Source of the DNA: Salinivenus iranica
GTDB lineage: Bacteria; Bacteroidota; Rhodothermia; Rhodothermales; Salinibacteraceae
Assembly (NCBI GenBank): GCA_002894665.1
Contig: NCRB01000003.1
Coordinates: 1 to 64,000 of the forward strand
DNA: 64,000 nt
Reading direction: 5' to 3'
Shown here: positions 29,888 through 39,251 of the stretch, piece after piece
Layout: each line of letters starts with the position of its first letter
How positions within the stretch are numbered: the first letter of the stretch is position 1
Made by a program: the position numbers and the translations under genes
The notes under the pieces: model-generated
What the model was told of the DNA's origin: nothing
The model's input: the letters and a program-made list of their open reading frames with translations, nothing else
Databases searched by the model: none

Positions 29888-30082
29888 CACTTCGGGGTCG
29901 GTTGCAGTATCACGTTCGCCCCCTAAGTGCAATCAATCTTCAGTTTGTGGATTGCGCAATGGGTCTTCGGATCCTCCGACCTCTTCGTTCGTCGAGAGCG
30001 GGGGCGGAAACAGGCCGTTGCCCTCGGGGCTTGGCCGGGATGACAAACACAACCTTGAGGTTTGACACAACGCTACGTTCTA
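29888..30082. other. Gap with a long imperfect hairpin after the proline dehydrogenase gene
   Basis: GCACTT (29887-29892) pairs with AAGTGC (29925-29930), and GGGG (29894-29897) with CCCC (29919-29922), which gives a stem with one mismatch right after the stop codon. No T-run follows, so it is at best a weak terminator or an mRNA 3' end stabiliser. The rest of the gap shows nothing further. Confidence 0.35.
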
Positions 30083-31231
30083 CTTGATGTCGTACCGATT
30101 CAGCATGCGGTACATGGTAGAGCGCCCGATGCCGAGCACGACGGCGGCCTGATCGACATTGCCGTCGCAGAGCTCGTAGGCTCGTTTGGCCGCCTCCTTC
30201 TTTATCTGCTCGATGGTCGGAATGCGTTCCGTCTTGTCTGACAGACCGGTTGGCTGCTCCGTGACGGGCGTCATCGAGTCGTCGGGCGGGACGGGGGCGT
30301 CGTCCGGGGTCGAGGAGGGGGACGACGAGTCGGTTGGGGGAGAGGGGGAAGCCGACGAGGACGGCAGGAGGAGATGCTGCTCCTCGATCGTTGACGAGGA
30401 GGCGGCATTCGCGGCGCGCTCCACCACGTTTTGCAGCTGGCGCACGTTGCCGGGCCAGTCGTGCGATTGGAGGACGTCCTGGGCCCCCTCCGAAAGAGAC
30501 AGTTGCTCCGCGGCTCGGTCGTGCTCGGCCCACTGGCGAAGGACGTGCCGCGCCAACCGTAGCACGTCGTCGCCCCGCTCTCGAAGTGGGGGCACAGAAA
30601 TTGGGAACTGGGCAAGCTTGTGGTAGAGGTCCTCCTTGAACGACGAACGCGGGAGGTTGGCCGAGGTGATGCTGATGAGGCGTACGCCAAACGCCTCCGA
30701 GCAGCTCCCACCCAAACGCTTAAATGAGTGCGTTTCCAGGATGTGGCTCAGCCGAGCCTGTGCATCCGCGTCGAGCGCGTCCACGTGGTCGAACACCACG
30801 GTTCCCCCCGAGGCAATTTCGCACACCCCGCCGAAGTCGGCCTCGCTCGCCGCCGGGGGGCCCAGGAGCAGGGGCTTCAGGTCCTCCGCCGTCGTCAGTT
30901 CGCAGTTGACCACGATGAGCCAGTTCTCTTTCCGGGCTGATCGGGCGTGGAGGGTGCGGGCAATGAGGTTTTTGCCGGTCCCACTCTCGCCCTCGATGAG
31001 CACGTTGAGGTCGTGTTGGGTGGCGGCGTCCACCAGGCGGCGCACCCTGCACAGCCCGTCGCTTTCCCCGACGAGCGGGTCGGCGTCGAGGAGGGGAATG
31101 GGGCTGTATACCGCATCCTGGTGCGGCCCGCCATACCGGCGTCGAGTGGGGGAGCCGTTGGGCGCGTCGACGTCGAACGAGGAGAGAAGATCGGACACTA
31201 CGAATCTTGAGAAGCGGGGAGACTCGGACAT
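30080..31231 (-). CDS. Degenerate sigma-54-activator-like AAA+ regulator with Fis-type HTH
   Basis: 383 residues from ATG 31231 (a TTG at 31249 is the other option). The AAA+ core has Walker A GESGTGKN (about 81-88) and WPGNVRQLQNVVERA, and the protein ends in a Fis-type helix-turn-helix (AAVVLGIGRSTMYRMLNRY). No receiver or GAF domain precedes it. The GAFTGA loop that contacts sigma-54 is missing: LLLGPPAASEADFGG occupies its place. Walker B reads VVFDHVDAL instead of FLDEIG, and the arginines of the usual FREDLYYRL element are lysines (FKEDLYHKL). It probably binds DNA without activating sigma-54. It is divergent from the curli genes and so may control them; this is an inference. Confidence 0.85.
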   Translation of the reverse strand: MSESPRFSRFVVSDLLSSFDVDAPNGSPTRRRYGGPHQDAVYSPIPLLDADPLVGESDGLCRVRRLVDAATQHDLNVLIEGESGTGKNLIARTLHARSARKENWLIVVNCELTTAEDLKPLLLGPPAASEADFGGVCEIASGGTVVFDHVDALDADAQARLSHILETHSFKRLGGSCSEAFGVRLISITSANLPRSSFKEDLYHKLAQFPISVPPLRERGDDVLRLARHVLRQWAEHDRAAEQLSLSEGAQDVLQSHDWPGNVRQLQNVVERAANAASSSTIEEQHLLLPSSSASPSPPTDSSSPSSTPDDAPVPPDDSMTPVTEQPTGLSDKTERIPTIEQIKKEAAKRAYELCDGNVDQAAVVLGIGRSTMYRMLNRYDIK

Positions 31232-31249
31232 AGAACGTGCGTCGGTCAA

Positions 31250-31804: not shown

Positions 31805-32434
31805 ATGGAAGCGCGTCTCGTTGTATTTGGTCTGGTGTTGGCCCTGGGGCTCGGGGGCAGCGTGACCGCCTCCCCGATGGGGGAGAGTACGCAAGAGGGG
31901 AAGGGGCCGGACGACGAGACCAGGGCGGCGTCCGACACGGTGTTCGTCGGCTGGATGCCGGCGATTGAGATTGTTGCGGAGCGGGTTGCGTCGGGGCCGT
32001 CCGCAGAGACGCGTGTGGCATCCGCCGCCTCGTCGCAGAAAACCGGCACGACGGCCCGCACACGTCCGACGGAAGCTCGCCAACGGGAGGGGGCATCGCA
32101 GCCCGATGGGTCCCCCGACCGGGCACCTGCACGCGGTGTGGGGGTGGGCGGCTTCGTGATGAACGAGACGTTCTCGGTGGTGGGGGATGACTTCTACACC
32201 GCATTTTACGGCGCCTGGTCGGAGCCGGAGAAAGTCGGCCTCTACACGGTGGCCGTGCAGGAGGAGCCGTCGCCGCAGTTTGGCGCCCGGCTGGCCGTGC
32301 ACGTGGACGACACCACCATTTTCCGGACCTTTCTGCGCCCCAACAACCGGAAGATTCAGGATGCGGCCCAGCGCGCAGCCCAACGTGCCCACATCTATTT
32401 GAGGAAGTACCACGAACCCCGCAAGGTCTACTAA
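31805..32434 (+). CDS. csgE: Curli assembly protein CsgE with long N-terminal extension
   Basis: 209 residues from ATG 31805. A signal peptide (LVVFGLVLALGLGGSVTAS) is followed by about 80 residues of low-complexity linker rich in Thr, Ala, Gly and Arg. The CsgE domain comes next: NETFSVVGDDFYTAFYGAW, a V-QEEPSPQFGARLAV strand region, and a VDDTTIFRTFL stretch with PNNRKIQDAAQRAAQ. CsgE is the periplasmic adaptor that caps the CsgG channel and directs curlin subunits to it. Canonical CsgE is about 130 residues, so the linker is an addition. Followed by csgF after 2 bases. Confidence 0.85.
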   Translation: MEARLVVFGLVLALGLGGSVTASPMGESTQEGKGPDDETRAASDTVFVGWMPAIEIVAERVASGPSAETRVASAASSQKTGTTARTRPTEARQREGASQPDGSPDRAPARGVGVGGFVMNETFSVVGDDFYTAFYGAWSEPEKVGLYTVAVQEEPSPQFGARLAVHVDDTTIFRTFLRPNNRKIQDAAQRAAQRAHIYLRKYHEPRKVY

Positions 32435-32436
32435 CA

Positions 32437-32928
32437 ATGTCTGCTGCTATGCTCGGTGACCGACCCGAACATTCGTCCGACGCCCGCGGCTGGCGGTCCA
32501 GCCACCAGGGGCTTGTGCTTCTGGTGGGGGCGGCGCTCCTGGTGATCGGGCTGGGGGCGCGCCCGGCCGCGGGGCAGGACCTCGTCTACCAGCCGACGAA
32601 CCCGGCCTTTGGGGGCTCGTCAGTCAACTACAGCTGGCTGCTCAAGTCGGCCAATAATCAGAACCCGTACAGCGGGGGCGGCGGGTTCAGTTCATTCCGC
32701 AGCGACCCGCTCCAGAACTTCGAGCAGCAGTTGCAGCGTCAGGTGCTTGACCAGATCTCCCGACAGATTATTCAGGATCGCTTTGGTGAAATCGACCTGA
32801 CGGAGGAGGGCACCTTCGACTTTGAGCGGTTTCAGGTGGACGTGACGCCTGGGCCGAGCGGAATCAACATCCGCGTCTTCAACAAGCAGACCGGCGAGAG
32901 CACGACCATCGACATCCCGCGGTTCTGA
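32437..32928 (+). CDS. csgF: Curli assembly protein CsgF
   Basis: 163 residues with a signal peptide preceded by a 25-residue hydrophilic leader. After the cleavage site (AAGQD) comes LVYQPTNPAFGGSSVNYSWL, followed by LKSANNQNPY. This matches the CsgF signature (FxxxNPxFGG...LLxxAxxQN), the segment known to insert into the CsgG channel. CsgF stays at the cell surface and helps the nucleator attach. Starts 2 bases after csgE stops, so the two genes are translationally close. Confidence 0.88.
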   Translation: MSAAMLGDRPEHSSDARGWRSSHQGLVLLVGAALLVIGLGARPAAGQDLVYQPTNPAFGGSSVNYSWLLKSANNQNPYSGGGGFSSFRSDPLQNFEQQLQRQVLDQISRQIIQDRFGEIDLTEEGTFDFERFQVDVTPGPSGINIRVFNKQTGESTTIDIPRF

Positions 32929-32986
32929 CGACGGTCGGCTGGAGTTCCTCTCGACGGATGCTGCCTTCCCCAATTCCTACCTGTCG

Positions 32987-34372
32987 ATGATCGCACGACG
33001 CCTCTTCCTCCTCAGTCTCCTGCTGCTGGTCGGCGCGACGGTTCTCCTTGTGGGCTGCGCCGCCCCGAAGCACGCCTTCGAGACGAAGGACGCCCACCCC
33101 GGGCTGCAGAGCACGGCCCACGACGAAATGACCGAGCTGCCGGCGCCGCGGGACAAGGTGGTGGCGGCCGTTTATCAGTTCCGGGATCAGACGGGCCAGT
33201 ACAAGGCCAAGGAGCGGGGCTCTAGCTTTTCCCGGGCCGTCACGCAGGGCGGGACGTCCATCCTCATGAGATCTCTGAAGGACTCAGGCTGGTTTCGGCC
33301 CATCGAGCGCAAGGGGCTGTCGAACCTCGTGAAGGAGCGGGACATCATCCGGTCCATTCGCCAGCAGTACGATCGGGAAAACGCCCAACGGCTCTCGCCT
33401 CTGCTCTACGCCGGCATTCTTCTGGAGGGCGGCATCATTGGCTACGATACGAACGTGATTACGGGCGGGGGCGGCTTTCGGCTCGCGGCGATCGGCGGGT
33501 CGGGGCAGTACCGGCAGGACCAGGTGACGGTGTACCTGCGCGCCGTGTCGACCCAGACGGGCGAGGTGCTGAAGACGGTGCACACGACGAAGACCATCCT
33601 CTCGCAGGAGCTGGACGGCGGGGCGTTCCGCTACGTCGACGCCGACCTGCTGCTGGAGACGGAGGCGGGCATCTCGTATAACGAGCCGACGACGATGGCC
33701 GTGACGGAGGCGATCGAAACGTCGGTGCGCGACCTGGTGGTGGAGGGGATCAAGGACGGCCTCTTTGCGCCGCGCGACTCGTCGGCGGCCCGGGCGGCCA
33801 TTGCGGACTACGAGCAGCGCAGGGAGCGCGCGTCCCGTCGCGACTACTTCGACCGCCTGCTGCAACCGGACAACCGGCCGGGCCTGGGACTGCAGGTGAG
33901 CGGCGGTGGGATTCTGTATCAGGGCGACTACACGAACCCGGAGGCCCGCCCGTCGGTGGCGCTGGGCCTGCAGTACATGATGACGCCGCGCTGGGGCGTG
34001 GGGCTGGAGGGCGACCTGGGGCGCCTGAGTGCGGCCGACGGTCGGTTCAATGAGATGACGCTCTCGACGAACGCGCAGCTCAGCTACTACTTCGTGCCGC
34101 GCGCGCAGGTGACGCCGTTCCTCCGCGTGGAGGGCGGGGTGCGCAGCCGGTACCCGTACACCTATGACTTTGGGACCGACACCTTCTGGCAGGGCGGCGC
34201 GAGCGTCGGGATGGAATACATGATGAGCGAGCGGCTGGCCCTTAGCACCTCGATTGGCGCACAGTATGCGGCCAGTGACGCCCTCGACGGGCAGAACGTG
34301 GGCACGTACCACGACAGCATCTGGCAGGCCGACGTCGGCCTCACCTACTACGGCCTCGGTGCCCTCTTTTGA
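32987..34372 (+). CDS. csgG: CsgG curli secretion channel fused to a C-terminal outer-membrane beta-barrel
   Basis: 461 residues. A lipobox LVGC (Cys24) and a CsgG domain (about 50-265) are clear: VAAVYQFRDQTGQYK, GGTSILMRSLKDSGWF, LVKERDIIRS, LLYAGILLEGGIIGYDTN and GEVLKTVHTTKTI. CsgG forms a nonameric lipoprotein pore through the outer membrane for curlin export. Standard CsgG is about 280 residues. Here residues 300-461 continue with alternating amphipathic strands (LGLQVSGGGILYQG, ASVGMEYMMSERLALSTSIG) that end in an aromatic residue, the look of an eight-stranded OmpA/Opa-type barrel. Third gene of the curli unit. Confidence 0.88.
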   Translation: MIARRLFLLSLLLLVGATVLLVGCAAPKHAFETKDAHPGLQSTAHDEMTELPAPRDKVVAAVYQFRDQTGQYKAKERGSSFSRAVTQGGTSILMRSLKDSGWFRPIERKGLSNLVKERDIIRSIRQQYDRENAQRLSPLLYAGILLEGGIIGYDTNVITGGGGFRLAAIGGSGQYRQDQVTVYLRAVSTQTGEVLKTVHTTKTILSQELDGGAFRYVDADLLLETEAGISYNEPTTMAVTEAIETSVRDLVVEGIKDGLFAPRDSSAARAAIADYEQRRERASRRDYFDRLLQPDNRPGLGLQVSGGGILYQGDYTNPEARPSVALGLQYMMTPRWGVGLEGDLGRLSAADGRFNEMTLSTNAQLSYYFVPRAQVTPFLRVEGGVRSRYPYTYDFGTDTFWQGGASVGMEYMMSERLALSTSIGAQYAASDALDGQNVGTYHDSIWQADVGLTYYGLGALF

Positions 34373-34848
34373 GATACGACGACCGGGTCTCCGCGTCGCG
34401 TTCAGAAATGAGACTCAAATTCGGTTCAGAGATGGTTTGAAGGTCGAAGAGCGAGAGAGCATTATGCTCCTGCGACGAAAATCAACAATCGCCACACTGG
34501 AAATGCGGACTGCTCAGAAGTGAGGACCGCAGCGGGCTGCAGCCTGCGGACGAGGGACCGCCCGGCAGAGGGCCGTCGCTTTTCCGGAGCCTGTCGTCCG
34601 CGCGGGTGGCAGCGCGCCACCGGCGGTCGGCGACCCCGAACAAAAAACGACGCTCGCGGGATTCCGCTCCCATTGCGGGAGCGGCCCAGGCCCACGAGCG
34701 CCGCAGCACCTCCACACGCTATGGTGAAGGCGCTTTTCTTCACAAGCTCATGGGGGCTGCGGTGTTCCGGCCCCCGGCTCACCGACGAGCCCGGGCCGGA
34801 TTCTTCTCACGCAGTTTCGTTCTCTCGAACGCACCCACACCCAAACCC
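34373..34848. other. 476-base gap between csgG and the first curlin gene with stacked hairpins
   Basis: No reliable gene. Several GC-rich inverted repeats follow each other: CCGCAG (34527-34532) with CTGCGG shortly after; GGTGGC with GCCACC around 34605-34621; and a perfect 8-bp stem CCGCTCCC (34664-34671) / GGGAGCGG (34677-34684), with an outer CGCTCG (34650-34655) / CGAGCG pair. A run of six A at 34642-34647 would make the last hairpin an intrinsic terminator on the minus strand. The dense structure could also mark a small RNA or a processed leader of the curlin mRNA. Confidence 0.45.
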
Positions 34849-35634
34849 ATGAGACAATTTCTCAAGATCACGACGACATTCGCGCTTGCCCTCGTCTTTA
34901 CGGCGGGGATGGCATTTGGGCAGGACAGCGACGCTACGCTCGACCAGCTCGGTGACGACAATAATGCTACCATCCAGCAGAACGGTGGCGACGGTGAAAT
35001 GCAAGCCACAGCACTGCAGGATGGAGATCAGAACGCCCTTGACCTCACTCAGAGCGACTTTGGGGAGGCGGACCATGCTGCCGATATTCGGCAGGTTGGA
35101 TTCTCCAATGATGCGGACCTTCAGTCGCAAGGTGGAGTTGGGGCTAACTTCCTTGACGTAGACCAGGTGGGAAATAATAATGAGACCACTGTTGCTCACT
35201 TCAGCGGTAGTCACTACAATAAAGTCCTCCAGAACGGAAATCGTAATGACGCGGAGATAGCGCACCGATCGAGTTTCGACAACTCTGTTACTTTGGTGCA
35301 GCGAGGTGATGACAATTCCGTTCTTGCTACTGACGACGGGCAAGGCGCGAATGGTGCAGAAAAAAGCACGTTTGAAGCCCGACAGATTGGGGATCAAAAT
35401 GAAGGGACGCTGACGCACACTGGCGGAAATCTTGAAGCGTACCTTACTCAGGACGGCTTCTCGAACGAGGCCTCCATCACCCAGAATACAGGAACAGAGG
35501 TGTTCGATAACTACGCCGACGTGGTTCAGCGTGGGAACAATAACATGAGCACGGTCACCCAGGGAACTGATGGAAACTTCGCCGACGTGCGCCAGATCGG
35601 CAACCGGAATACGTCTACGGTTACCCAGGAATAG
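34849..35634 (+). CDS. Curlin-repeat amyloid subunit (CsgA/CsgB-like) 1
   Basis: 261 residues: a signal peptide (FALALVFTAGMAFGQ) and about a dozen degenerate curlin half-repeats built on xQxGxxNxxxxxQ, for example LDQLGDDNNATIQQNG, DVVQRGNNNMSTVTQG and DVRQIGNRNTSTVTQE. This pattern makes the strand-turn-strand stacks of functional amyloid fibres. It is Gln/Asn-rich and acidic. Third base pattern and lower GC around 35000-35600 differ from the neighbours, as is common for amyloid subunit genes. ATG 34849 sits directly before the signal peptide. Confidence 0.9.
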   Translation: MRQFLKITTTFALALVFTAGMAFGQDSDATLDQLGDDNNATIQQNGGDGEMQATALQDGDQNALDLTQSDFGEADHAADIRQVGFSNDADLQSQGGVGANFLDVDQVGNNNETTVAHFSGSHYNKVLQNGNRNDAEIAHRSSFDNSVTLVQRGDDNSVLATDDGQGANGAEKSTFEARQIGDQNEGTLTHTGGNLEAYLTQDGFSNEASITQNTGTEVFDNYADVVQRGNNNMSTVTQGTDGNFADVRQIGNRNTSTVTQE

Positions 35635-35672
35635 TTCCTTTAGGTGTCCCCACAAGACATCTGGGGTTCTAT

Positions 35673-35706
35673 TTGCACCGGGGGGGCATCGCGTCCCCCG
35701 GTGCAA
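35673..35706 (+). terminator. Strong 12-bp hairpin ending the curlin 1 gene, abutting the tRNA-like element
   Basis: TTGCACCGGGGG (35673-35684) pairs perfectly with CCCCCGGTGCAA (35695-35706) around a 10-base loop. No T-run follows, so a classic intrinsic terminator is not assured. The tRNA-like cloverleaf starts four bases later (35710). A weaker stem (AGGTGTC 35642-35648 with GACATCT 35656-35662) comes before it. Confidence 0.5.
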
Positions 35707-35709
35707 CCC

Positions 35710-35781
35710 TGTGGGGTAATTCAATGGTAGAATGCCTGGCAGTACCCCAGGTCGCTGGCGGTTCGAGTCCGCCCCCCACAG
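35710..35781 (+). tRNA. tRNA-like cloverleaf with tRNA-Gln-type body but abnormal anticodon loop
   Basis: 72 bases fold as a complete tRNA: 7-bp acceptor (TGTGGGG with CCCCACA at 35774-35780), 4-bp D stem (ATTC with GAAT) with loop AATGGTA, 5-bp anticodon stem (CCTGG/CCAGG), 5-base variable arm, 5-bp T stem (GGCGG/CCGCC) with loop TTCGAGT, and discriminator G81. CCA is not encoded. T1-A72 and G73 are tRNA-Gln identity features. The 7-base anticodon loop is CAGTACC: position 33 is A instead of the near-universal T, and 37 is C instead of a purine, so the formal anticodon GTA (Tyr) is doubtful. It may be a diverged or non-decoding tRNA. Confidence 0.6.
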
Positions 35782-35846
35782 CCTCTATTTTTGCTGTTGT
35801 GTATGGGCGCAATGCCCTGCAGCGATCACCATTGCCCACAAGTGTG

Positions 35847-36608
35847 ATGATCAGAAAATCCCTGCGGATGATACTTTCGGTTAGGCCCGGTTCATTGCTG
35901 GGAGCACTTGTCGCTCTGGGCCTGGCAGGTCTGCTGGGGCTTGGGATTGCCCCGGCGCACGCCCAGGTGCAGATTGAGCAGGTGGAGAATACGGCCTCGA
36001 AGATTCAGGGGGCCACGGAGGGGCAGGTGATCGTGAAGTTGCAGGAGGAGGCCGGGGCGGTGACGCGCGACGACGTGCTCGGCCTCACGGGGGCGTCGCC
36101 CCTGCCCGGCAATAGCGGCTCCGGGGCACGTGCCGTCGTGGAGCAGCGGGGCAACAGCAACGAGGCCACCGTCACGCAGGAGGGCGACGGGCACGAGGCG
36201 TCGGTCGCCCAGCGTGGCAATCGGAACGACATGTCCGTTGTGCAGCGCCCGGTCAGCGGTTACGGTGGGAGTGTGCCCTCGTACGTCGGGAGAGGCACCG
36301 GATCGGATAACCTGGCCGTTGTGGTCCAGGACGGAAGCGACAACGCAACCACCATCCAGCAGTACGGGAGCGACAACATCGCCGGCATCCGGCTCGACGG
36401 CTCCGACAACGCGATGGAGCTGCTGCAGGTGGGCGACGGCAATGAGTACCTGCTCGACCACACCGGGAGCGGCCTCGACCTGACCGGGAGCAAGCGCATC
36501 GAGCAGTTCGGGAACGACAATCTGCTTCGGCAGCGGGGCGCCGGGACGCCCATCAGCGTGCAGATGAAGGGAGAGGGCATTCGGATGGAAATTACGCAGA
36601 CCCCATAA
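35847..36608 (+). CDS. Curlin-repeat amyloid subunit 2
   Basis: 253 residues from ATG 35847; an upstream open stretch crosses the tRNA-like element and is not used. The signal peptide ends near APAHAQ. About 50 non-repeat residues follow, then repeats such as VVEQRGNSNEATVTQEG, VVVQDGSDNATTIQQYG and IEQFGNDNLLRQRG, the curlin pattern. Two repeats are less regular (VVQRPVSGYGG). Probably a fibre subunit or the nucleator. Confidence 0.85.
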   Translation: MIRKSLRMILSVRPGSLLGALVALGLAGLLGLGIAPAHAQVQIEQVENTASKIQGATEGQVIVKLQEEAGAVTRDDVLGLTGASPLPGNSGSGARAVVEQRGNSNEATVTQEGDGHEASVAQRGNRNDMSVVQRPVSGYGGSVPSYVGRGTGSDNLAVVVQDGSDNATTIQQYGSDNIAGIRLDGSDNAMELLQVGDGNEYLLDHTGSGLDLTGSKRIEQFGNDNLLRQRGAGTPISVQMKGEGIRMEITQTP

Positions 36609-36654
36609 CCCCGCGTCAGATTGCGTGCTCTTCTCCCATCGCCCGGTGGTTGCC

Positions 36655-37398
36655 ATGCGTTGCGTCCTGGAACTTACCCTACTTGTCCTCCTGCTGGCCG
36701 GGGTGGGGGGCGTGAGGGCACAGGACGCGACGTTGATGGCTCGAAGCGGGCCAGTGGTCGACAGTGCCGAATGGGAGAGGTCAACGGCCCGGACCCCCAC
36801 CGTCGACTCGGCGCGTTGGCGGATTCTGCAGGTGACGCCCATGGACTTTTTTACGCCGGCGGGGACGGTCGCCCCAATTCAGGCCGCCGAGCAGCAGCGC
36901 ACGCACGCCTCGCTTCTGGTCCGGCAGTGGGGATTGAGAAACAAGGTTTTTGGCCGGGCCCCGGGCACGTCGCCCCTCCTCGCTGGCCAGACCCGCATCC
37001 TGCAGATTGGGAGCAATAACGTCGTCCTTCCGGCCCGGGTGCCGGGGAGACATTCCTTCCTTGATCGATTCCGTGCCCGCCCGATTGGGGAGGTCGTCGG
37101 GATCGACAACCGATTGCTTGTGGCACAGGGAACGCGTACGACCCCCGCGGTGAGGAGCGTGGTGGGGCCGGCTGCGCAGCTTGGTCGGTCCAACCGAGCC
37201 ACGATTCGGCAGACGGGGCGAGACAATCTGGTGCGGCAGATCCTGCAGGCTGGCATCGCCAACCGGGTTTGTGGGCAACAGTACGGTGCTCAAAATATCC
37301 TCCGCGTGCACCAGGCCGGGGTCGACAGCACAGCCCGCGTACGACAGAACGGCGCTGGAAATACCGCAATCGTCGTGCAAAATGGATCGGATGTATGA
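36655..37398 (+). CDS. Curlin-repeat protein 3 with a long non-repeat N-terminal part
   Basis: 247 residues. The signal peptide (LLVLLLAGVGGVRAQ) is followed by about 140 residues without obvious repeats. Three to four curlin-like repeats come at the end: NRATIRQTGRDNLVRQILQ, ILRVHQAGVDSTARVRQ and NGAGNTAIVVQNG. The partly repetitive build suggests a nucleator or anchor more than a bulk subunit. Its TGA overlaps the next gene's ATG (ATGA at 37395-37398), a sign of coupled translation. Confidence 0.72.
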   Translation: MRCVLELTLLVLLLAGVGGVRAQDATLMARSGPVVDSAEWERSTARTPTVDSARWRILQVTPMDFFTPAGTVAPIQAAEQQRTHASLLVRQWGLRNKVFGRAPGTSPLLAGQTRILQIGSNNVVLPARVPGRHSFLDRFRARPIGEVVGIDNRLLVAQGTRTTPAVRSVVGPAAQLGRSNRATIRQTGRDNLVRQILQAGIANRVCGQQYGAQNILRVHQAGVDSTARVRQNGAGNTAIVVQNGSDV

Positions 37399-37847
37399 GT
37401 TCTCCGAGCATCTTGTGGACCGTCATGCAGTCCGCCCTGCCTGTAGTTCATTGGATCGGGGGAGGCATCATCGTTGTCCTCGTGTTCTTTGCGGCAGCGA
37501 CGGAGGATGCCGAGCGGCAGGCCCGATCAGCTCCCGCCCCGGACAGCACCGGGGCACAGATTGACCTGGAGCGGGAGGGAGACGCGTGCTCCGTACGGGC
37601 CCTCTATACGGGAGAGGGGGCCTCGGCGGACACCCTGTCCTACGAGCTGACAGTCCGCCGGCGTGGGGCGTCCGGCACCACGCAGACGGCACAGTCGGGC
37701 ACCTTTTCGGTCGGGCCGGGTCGCACCGACACCCTCGCGACCGTTCGGGTAAGCGTCCAGTCCGGCGACCAGCTCCGCCTGCGGCTGACGATCCGGGCGG
37801 AGGGCGCTCCGATCGACACAACCGACCTCGAGCGCACCATTTCGTAG
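37395..37847 (+). CDS. CsgH-like curli chaperone/inhibitor 1
   Basis: 150 residues from ATG 37395, overlapping the previous stop by four bases. An N-terminal hydrophobic segment (VVHWIGGGIIVVLVFFAAAT) serves as signal or anchor. The rest matches CsgH-like proteins, a CsgC-type immunoglobulin fold: SYELTVRRRGASGTTQTAQS, then GTFSVGPGRTDTLATVRVSV and a final hydrophobic strand. CsgC/CsgH proteins hold curlin unfolded in the periplasm and prevent early amyloid growth. Confidence 0.72.
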   Translation: MSSPSILWTVMQSALPVVHWIGGGIIVVLVFFAAATEDAERQARSAPAPDSTGAQIDLEREGDACSVRALYTGEGASADTLSYELTVRRRGASGTTQTAQSGTFSVGPGRTDTLATVRVSVQSGDQLRLRLTIRAEGAPIDTTDLERTIS

Positions 37848-37857
37848 CCCAGATGCC

Positions 37858-38307
37858 ATGCCTCCTTTCGACGCCGGCTCTGACCGCCAGATTCGAACAG
37901 ACGCCTCCCGGTTGCAGCGGGACAGGGGGCGTCCCGCGGGGGAGGCGGGGGGCGACGAGGCGGCGACGCTGGAGATGCCGTACGACGTGACGGTGGAGGC
38001 GGAGGGGACGGGCGCACAACTCGTCGTGGAGCAGAAGCTGGCCCTGGTGCGCGTGTGGGCTGTGGTTGTGAACGACGAGGAGCCTGCCTCCTTTTCGTAC
38101 ATGCTCACGGTGCAGCGCGTCGGGGCGTCCGGCAAGGCGACAGTCAACCGGTCGGGCACGTTTTCCCTTGCGACCAGCGAGGAGACGGTGCCTACCACCC
38201 TGCCCGTCAGCGTGGAGGCGAGCGACCGTCTGGCGTGCCGGCTGGTGGTGTTTGCCGGCATCATACCCATCAGCGAGGATCAGGTGCGGCACCACGTGCC
38301 GCCGTGA
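37858..38307 (+). CDS. CsgH-like protein 2 without a visible signal peptide
   Basis: 149 residues; the second half repeats the CsgH pattern of its neighbour (FSYMLTVQRVGASGKATVNR, then SGTFSLATSEETVPTTLPVS and LACRLVVFAG). The first 40 residues are Arg/Asp/Gly-rich and have no signal peptide, so either the start is wrong, the protein is exported by another route, or it acts in the cytoplasm. Starts 10 bases after the first CsgH-like gene. Confidence 0.6.
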   Translation: MPPFDAGSDRQIRTDASRLQRDRGRPAGEAGGDEAATLEMPYDVTVEAEGTGAQLVVEQKLALVRVWAVVVNDEEPASFSYMLTVQRVGASGKATVNRSGTFSLATSEETVPTTLPVSVEASDRLACRLVVFAGIIPISEDQVRHHVPP

Positions 38308-38573
38308 AGGGGGGCATTCGGCTTTGTGGGGACGTGGGGGATATAAGCAAAAAAGCGACGCCGATGAGGATCCGCTCACGGAAACGCGAGCGGCGGCCGC
38401 CCCCATCAGCGCCGCGGGTGCCTTCGTTTTGCGAAGACACACGCCACCCCAATCAGGGCGTCAGATCAGTGTTCCGGGAGAAGCGGTCCGTTCGCGTGCG
38501 AACGGCGGCCACTCCCGGGGCACTCGGTTCCGCCCGAGGACGATGTCCCTCTCCAATCACAAACTCTCAAGAT
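38308..38573. other. Gap with two inverted repeats before the lipoprotein gene
   Basis: CCGCTC...GAGCGG near 38368-38390, and an almost self-complementary CCGTTCGCGTGCGAACGG at 38488-38505 (8-bp arms, 2-base loop). The first may end the curli unit, the second may be an operator or mRNA hairpin of the lipoprotein gene. No gene is seen. Confidence 0.4.
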
Positions 38574-39251
38574 ATGTTTATCCACACCCTTTGGGGTCCC
38601 AAGACGATCGGTCCTGTTCTCGTGTGTTTGCTGGTTGTCCTCGCCACGACGGGCTGCGACGAAGAAACCGTGGGCCCAGAGACACGGGGAAGCATTGAGG
38701 GCCTCGTGCAGGAGGCTTCCACGAATGAGGCCATTGCCAATGCCAGCGTCACGACCAGCCCGCCCACGCAGTCCGTCCTCACGGACAAAAGCGGCGCGTT
38801 TTCCCTCACCGACATAGAGACCGGCAACTACACGGTCGAGGTCAGCAAATCCGGCTACGATACGCGCAACGTGACCGTCAACGTACAGGAGAACCGGACG
38901 GCCAGCGCCACGATCCTCCTTGAGCGCGGCGACGACTTCGGTACGCAGACCGACTCGTTGACCGCTGCGGTGACGAACTGGTACAATGACCGTGTCAACC
39001 GCGACAGCACCGGGGCCGACAGCATTTTTGCCGACGTGGAATATAGCGTCCGGAACGTGGGCGACGTGCCGGTGCGGCGCTACGAGGTATACTTCGAGAT
39101 CACCACATCGGACGGCACGTTCTCGTTTGAAGCCGAAGGCGACAGCCTAGAGGCGACTCAGCGGGACATCGGGGGGTTCCGAAAGTACATCACGAACGAC
39201 GCTCAGGCCGTCGAGATTACGGACCTCTACTACGAGACGAGCGAGAGCTGA
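38574..39251 (+). CDS. Lipoprotein with carboxypeptidase-regulatory-like domain
   Basis: 225 residues, lipobox ATTGC (Cys near 28). Residues about 38-110 form a carboxypeptidase D regulatory-like beta-sandwich (GSIEGLVQEASTNEAIANAS, then KSGAFSLTDIETGNYTVEV). The rest resembles an Ig-like fold with paired strands (ADVEYSVRNVGDVPV). It is the last gene before a strand switch and may belong to the curli locus as a surface or periplasmic helper; its function is not known. Confidence 0.7.
   Translation: MFIHTLWGPKTIGPVLVCLLVVLATTGCDEETVGPETRGSIEGLVQEASTNEAIANASVTTSPPTQSVLTDKSGAFSLTDIETGNYTVEVSKSGYDTRNVTVNVQENRTASATILLERGDDFGTQTDSLTAAVTNWYNDRVNRDSTGADSIFADVEYSVRNVGDVPVRRYEVYFEITTSDGTFSFEAEGDSLEATQRDIGGFRKYITNDAQAVEITDLYYETSES

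Follow-up and report, generated by a model that had tools for sequence, protein, structure and literature searches.

Between positions 31805 and 39251 of the window, the 64,000 nucleotides of Salinivenus iranica DNA analysed here, CsgE, CsgF, CsgG, three curlin-repeat proteins, two CsgH-like proteins and a CarboxypepD lipoprotein are all encoded in the same direction. The secretion genes come first: csgE (31805..32434, +; PF10627, 3.4e-21), csgF (32437..32928, +; PF10614, 3.5e-37) and csgG (32987..34372, +; PF03783, 4.1e-61). A leader of 476 bp (34373..34848, +), partly conserved in the closest relative by sequence and identity profile, precedes cur1, the gene of the major, CsgA-like curlin (34849..35634, +; Curlin_rpt, 5.2e-24). 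Behind cur1, folding gives a GC-rich stem-loop (TTGCACCGGGGGG...CCCCCGGTGCAA; 35672..35706, +), which ends a few nucleotides 5' of a tRNA-like element (35710..35782, +). The remaining genes are cur2, a conserved, CsgB-like second curlin (35847..36608, +; Curlin_rpt, 2.3e-17), cur3, a third curlin (36655..37398, +; Curlin_rpt, 1.3e-9), two CsgH-like genes (37395..37847, +, overlapping the cur3 stop by 4 bp, and 37858..38307, +), and the gene of a lipoprotein with a CarboxypepD_reg domain (38574..39251, +; PF13620, 8e-15), which holds the same position in the curli loci of Salinibacter ruber plasmids. An NtrC-family AAA+ regulator with a Fis-type HTH is encoded divergently (30080..31249, -; Pfam Sigma54_activat 2.6e-29, HTH_8). 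The original prediction of a curli gene set running in one direction, and the HMM check proposed for it, are borne out: CsgE, CsgF, CsgG, the three curlins and the lipoprotein all exceed the Pfam curated cut-offs. The csgG, csgE and csgF genes of curli (type VIII) secretion are present together, and Curlin_rpt is found in three ORFs, with a repeat spacing of 22-28 amino acids in cur1.

Several features that had been put forward as extensions of the E. coli gene set are usual for the phylum. The fusion of csgG to a barrel does exist: the C-terminus of CsgG (residues ~300-455) matches OMP_b-brl (PF13505, 1.4e-7), the AlphaFold model has eight C-terminal beta-strands with a pLDDT of ~90 in the barrel (the model overall is moderate, with a mean pLDDT of 72.5), and Foldseek relates the N-terminus to CsgG and the C-terminus to OmpA/NspA-type barrels. 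However, with a model trained on the CsgG of the window, full-length CsgG including the barrel region was found in nearly all of 82 Bacteroidota loci, with contig ends or short copies accounting for most of the others, and the fusion was rejected as a novelty. Three csgG-like ORFs in a row were seen in a Paludibacter-type locus (L183:10415-13720). Taken singly, the two CsgH-like proteins score 24.7 and 22.2 bits and narrowly miss the Pfam cut-off of 27; a profile built from 18 relatives in 16 loci nevertheless matches the solved structures of CsgH (2n59, 8.7e-12) and CsgC (2y2t, 3.5e-7), which places them by sequence in the CsgC-like family. They resemble the known CsgH/CsgC chaperones (PDB 2n59, 2y2y; PMC4838910) in sequence profile and in their place beside the subunit genes, and differ in standing as two adjacent copies. 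Such a pair, one of the extras named originally, was otherwise encountered in Salinivenus lutea only; CsgH as such is not new to the phylum, its subfamilies in Bacteroidetes having been described in 2016 (PMC4838910) and the protein being named by PGAP in S. ruber. In two Saprospiraceae-type loci (L171:9041-9826, L180:176-1036) CsgE carries a CsgH-like domain as an N-terminal fusion.

No CsgD-type regulator is encoded at the locus, as had been noted, and this too is ordinary, for Bacteroidota curli loci have been described as lacking csgC and, except in Spirosoma, csgD (PMC3521004). The divergent regulator is indeed altered: it combines Sigma54_activat with a Fis HTH, and the GAFTGA loop of sigma54-dependent activators is absent from it as well as from its counterparts in S. 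lutea and genome G022. Because of this absence, activation of the sigma54 polymerase by the regulator is unlikely, despite the presence of rpoN in the genome. The locus thus shares CsgE, CsgF, CsgG, curlin repeats and a CsgC/CsgH-type chaperone with E. coli csgBAC-csgDEFG and with Bacteroidota csg loci. It differs in its single direction, in the lack of csgD, in the barrel on CsgG, which Bacteroidota have generally, and in having three curlins, two csgH genes and a tRNA-like element inside. It is a curli gene set, complete for predicted amyloid fibres and mostly ordinary for the phylum.

The host is of the Salinibacter/Salinivenus type, in agreement with the halophilic Bacteroidota-like genome that had been proposed, and the closest genome compared is that of Salinivenus lutea DBO (G001; locus L087, the same as L105), with ~97% identity through csgEFG and the flanks. 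Full-length csgG is patchy in the genus (5 of 13 genomes), and in genome G011 the curli locus lies at a different chromosomal site. Further loci are carried by the S. ruber plasmids pSR84 and pSR67 (NC_014157.1, NZ_CP030372.1), and also by pSR66. Curlin clusters of S. ruber were reported in 2018 on pSR61, pSR66, pSR84, pSR67 and the island fGI-1, and are common to plasmids and islands in that species (PMC6060240). The loci of pSR84 and pSR67 have the same order as the window, csgEFG-curlin-hairpin-tRNA-like-curlin-csgH-lipoprotein; unlike the window, they are on plasmids, have one csgH, and have the anticodon arm of the element closed to a hairpin.

The subunit genes follow a different course from their flanks. 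The signal peptide of cur1 is conserved between the window and S. lutea, the mature part (34950-35640) is unalignable with L087 at ~45% DNA identity, and identity resumes at the hairpin. The S. lutea cur1 protein has its best matches among the curlins of Fodinibius, G022 and pSR66 (148-179 bits) and reaches only 74 bits with the cur1 of the window. The most likely explanation of these two observations is that a non-orthologous mature subunit has taken the place of the original one in the stretch that runs from the signal peptide to the hairpin/tRNA block. The second curlin, cur2, is 86-87% identical to that of S. lutea, and cur3 was absent when sought there; the extra curlin of the original prediction is therefore real in the window genome, but missing in its closest relative. 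Identity between the two genomes is low in the CsgH-like proteins (53% for the first, 65% for the second), and the N-terminus of the lipoprotein is, like the CsgH-like genes, unusually diverged from S. lutea.

The unusual part of the locus is the tRNA-like element, which had been named only in passing. Its presence was confirmed by ARAGORN, which calls a 74-nt 'tRNA-Tyr' at 35710-35783, and by a local Rfam scan, in which it scores 52.6 bits against a gathering threshold of 29; it was also recovered by pair counts and by our model R1. A whole-window Rfam scan at the gathering threshold omitted this tRNA at 35710, which looks like a filter effect. The genome has 45 Rfam tRNA matches, the element included; 0.003 tRNAs would be expected by chance in the gap between the curlin genes. 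Six distinct copies were compared, from the window, S. lutea, G006, G011 (two copies, G011a and G011b) and pSR84/pSR67, the last two being identical. All of them start 55-83 nt past the first curlin stop and are always in the operon direction; G011 has two curlin pairs with one copy for each pair. In the same genome (L089), the copy that belongs to the downstream curlin pair bears a different loop.

Within the genus, the element is found in 4 of the 5 genomes with full-length csgG and in none of the 8 others (Fisher 0.002). In the fifth, G005, the site falls in an assembly gap, and the G006 copy is cut by a contig end within the element (L088:1-63). An exact-pattern search of 114 order-level genomes found the element in none of the others, model R1 found ordinary tRNAs only beyond the genus, and ARAGORN found no tRNA at the same place in 80 csgF loci beyond S. 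lutea. The element is retained on the G011 chromosome and on the S. ruber plasmids pSR84 and pSR67, though the site of the locus differs. In a tree of CsgF and CsgG the carriers form one clade, whose support is 1.00 and whose members diverge by up to 39% in amino-acid sequence; G005 is grouped with them, while the curli genes on pSR66 of S. ruber M1 belong to a different clade and lack the element. The element therefore probably arose once in this curli lineage, judging from a sample of six related copies of one genus, partly from metagenome assemblies. Phage origin was rejected, with no match in phages or viral contigs.

Across the six copies, 100% of the cells in the cloverleaf are paired, and the acceptor, D and T arms are complete in each copy. 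Compensated changes occur at three pairs, the first pair of the D stem and two pairs of the anticodon stem (invariant pairs carry no covariation information); slid controls give 0-1 compensated pairs, and no shuffle attains the covariation score. The tertiary-core positions U8, A14, G18G19, U54U55C56 and A58 are retained in the cloverleaf, and the window folds as a cloverleaf plus hairpin with a z of -3.06. Conservation is uneven, with 30 of 31 columns invariant in the acceptor and T arms and 2 of 8 in the anticodon loop. Between the window and S. lutea, 4 of 7 substitutions in the element fall within the 7 loop bases (Fisher 0.001). In S. lutea and G011a the loop reads CUGUUAA, with an Asn GUU anticodon and U33; in the window and G006 it reads CAGUACC, with A33 in place of U33; in pSR84/pSR67 and G011b the arm is closed to a hairpin. 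The copies do not share the 7-nt loop of a decoding tRNA, which has U33 and a consistent anticodon. The state of the loop is discordant with the tree, the window sharing CAGUACC with G006 while its sister S. lutea has the Asn loop. A functional tRNA-Tyr was rejected, because a canonical class II tRNA-Tyr exists elsewhere in the genome (in a Thr-Tyr-Gly-Thr cluster) and the element lacks U33.

The element might instead be, or have been, an accessory tRNA-Asn gene that aids translation of the Asn-rich curlins, the copies with other loops being in decay. The CUGUUAA loops with U33 in S. lutea and G011a belong to copies that score 63.4 and 61.9 bits, U1-A72 and G73 match the tRNA-Asn of the genome itself, and 27 of the 262 codons of cur1 are for Asn. 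However, four of the six copies would be unable to decode Asn and yet have perfect stems with compensated changes, which is not the picture of even decay, and a normal tRNA-Asn is already present in the genome. We consider this explanation improbable. The element is probably not kept for decoding, though the two copies with a normal Asn loop may still decode.

In all six copies the element is preceded, at a distance of 0-5 nt, by a stem-loop with a folding energy of -15 to -30 kcal/mol; in G011b the sequence of this stem-loop is unrelated to that of the others. Such a hairpin is unusual but not unique, because about 7 of the 44 ordinary tRNAs of the genome are preceded by one of -15 kcal/mol or stronger. 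It is not an intrinsic terminator, since the hairpin at 35672-35706 is followed by the tRNA-like element and has no T-run. By contrast, an intrinsic terminator with a T-run follows a curlin gene in pSR66, G024 (L094), Fodinibius, Marinilabilia and Pontibacter, and in pSR66 it occupies the same place as the element. Since related loci have a terminator behind a curlin gene, this suggests that the hairpin and the tRNA-like element stand in for one. A weak terminator-like stem is present in the window at 35638-35666, and scanning the region for promoters and terminators produced hits in numbers close to those from shuffles.

The position of the element next to the swapped subunit raises the question of whether it serves recombination, as an att-like site or homology block for the exchange of subunit cassettes or of the whole locus. 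The 3' half of the tRNA hardly varies, the exchange of the mature part of cur1 apparently ran right up to the hairpin/tRNA block, and curli clusters are shared by S. ruber plasmids and islands (PMC6060240). The element could be a boundary of cassette exchange. Nevertheless, an att site would be conserved as sequence, and not as D and anticodon arms whose stems are held by compensating changes, the genome holds no second copy as an attL/attR partner, and the element lies inside the operon instead of at the edge of a mobile unit. The compensation in the stems argues that marking an exchange boundary is probably not its main role, and we regard recombination as an unlikely explanation. We would give similarly little weight to a regulatory tRNA mimic that forms part of a regulatory RNA or acts as a decoy for tRNA-binding enzymes. 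The full tertiary core is kept while the anticodon loop is free to vary, and there is a precedent in the Bacillus cereus pseudo-tRNA tRNAOther, also a bacterial tRNA-like RNA outside translation and within a larger transcript (PMC3399842). The latter flanks a genomic island and affects the cell wall and antibiotic resistance, and does not lie between structural genes; the curli element keeps to one spot, behind a hairpin in the gap between two curlin genes, which points to action in cis.

Comparison of the sequences is clear as to the predicted structure, the place, the linkage and the apparent loss of decoding of the element, and we propose that this tRNA mimic in the curli subunit operon is RNA punctuation, separating the major-curlin mRNA from the rest. 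We put the probability of this reading at about one half. The cut at the 5' end of the element would be made by RNase P, and the 3' end would be formed by RNase Z or by 3' exonucleases. A protective stem-loop would then close the cur1 message, and cur2, cur3, csgH and the lipoprotein would be left on a separate RNA. The major subunit would be made in excess of the nucleator and the chaperones, the direction of this dosage effect being inferred, and relatives would reach a similar outcome by means of the intrinsic terminator that they carry there. The known substrates of RNase P include mRNAs, those of polycistronic operons among them (PMC11143913). What a mimic of RNase P and RNase Z substrates has, an acceptor/T-arm stack with the elbow guanosines and a free anticodon, is found in the element. 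A point against punctuation is the kept D arm, which may indicate a partner other than RNase P, because RNase P mainly needs the acceptor and T arms; the weak terminator-like stem at 35638-35666 counts against it as well.

The closest parallel is offered by mascRNA and menRNA of MALAT1 and MENbeta, in which a longer RNA with a structured 3' end is likewise followed directly by a tRNA shape that lacks a usable anticodon (PMC11693755). In mascRNA the anticodon arm is replaced by a long stem with a compact loop, and RNase P and RNase Z cut by way of the elbow guanosines (PMC11693755); the same guanosines are kept in the curli element. The eukaryotic RNAs are nuclear, have a reduced D arm and have been shown to be cleaved, whereas the curli element is known as sequence; no homology is implied. 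Their precursors have a triple helix where the curli locus has its hairpin. More tentatively than for punctuation itself, and with the odds slightly against, the element may be a bacterial case of the mascRNA kind: a tRNA gene that the amyloid operon captured, that lost its anticodon, and that would now set subunit ratios as a signal for processing, beside a major curlin exchanged as a cassette between strains.

The swap of the major curlin between near-identical genomes suggests diversifying pressure on the fibre surface. If the punctuation proposal is true, bacteria would have put the tRNA fold to a new use inside a structural operon, purely as a mark for mRNA processing, in parallel to the tRNA punctuation of mitochondria and the processing of MALAT1, and these organisms would have in it a means of setting the ratio of amyloid subunit to nucleator.
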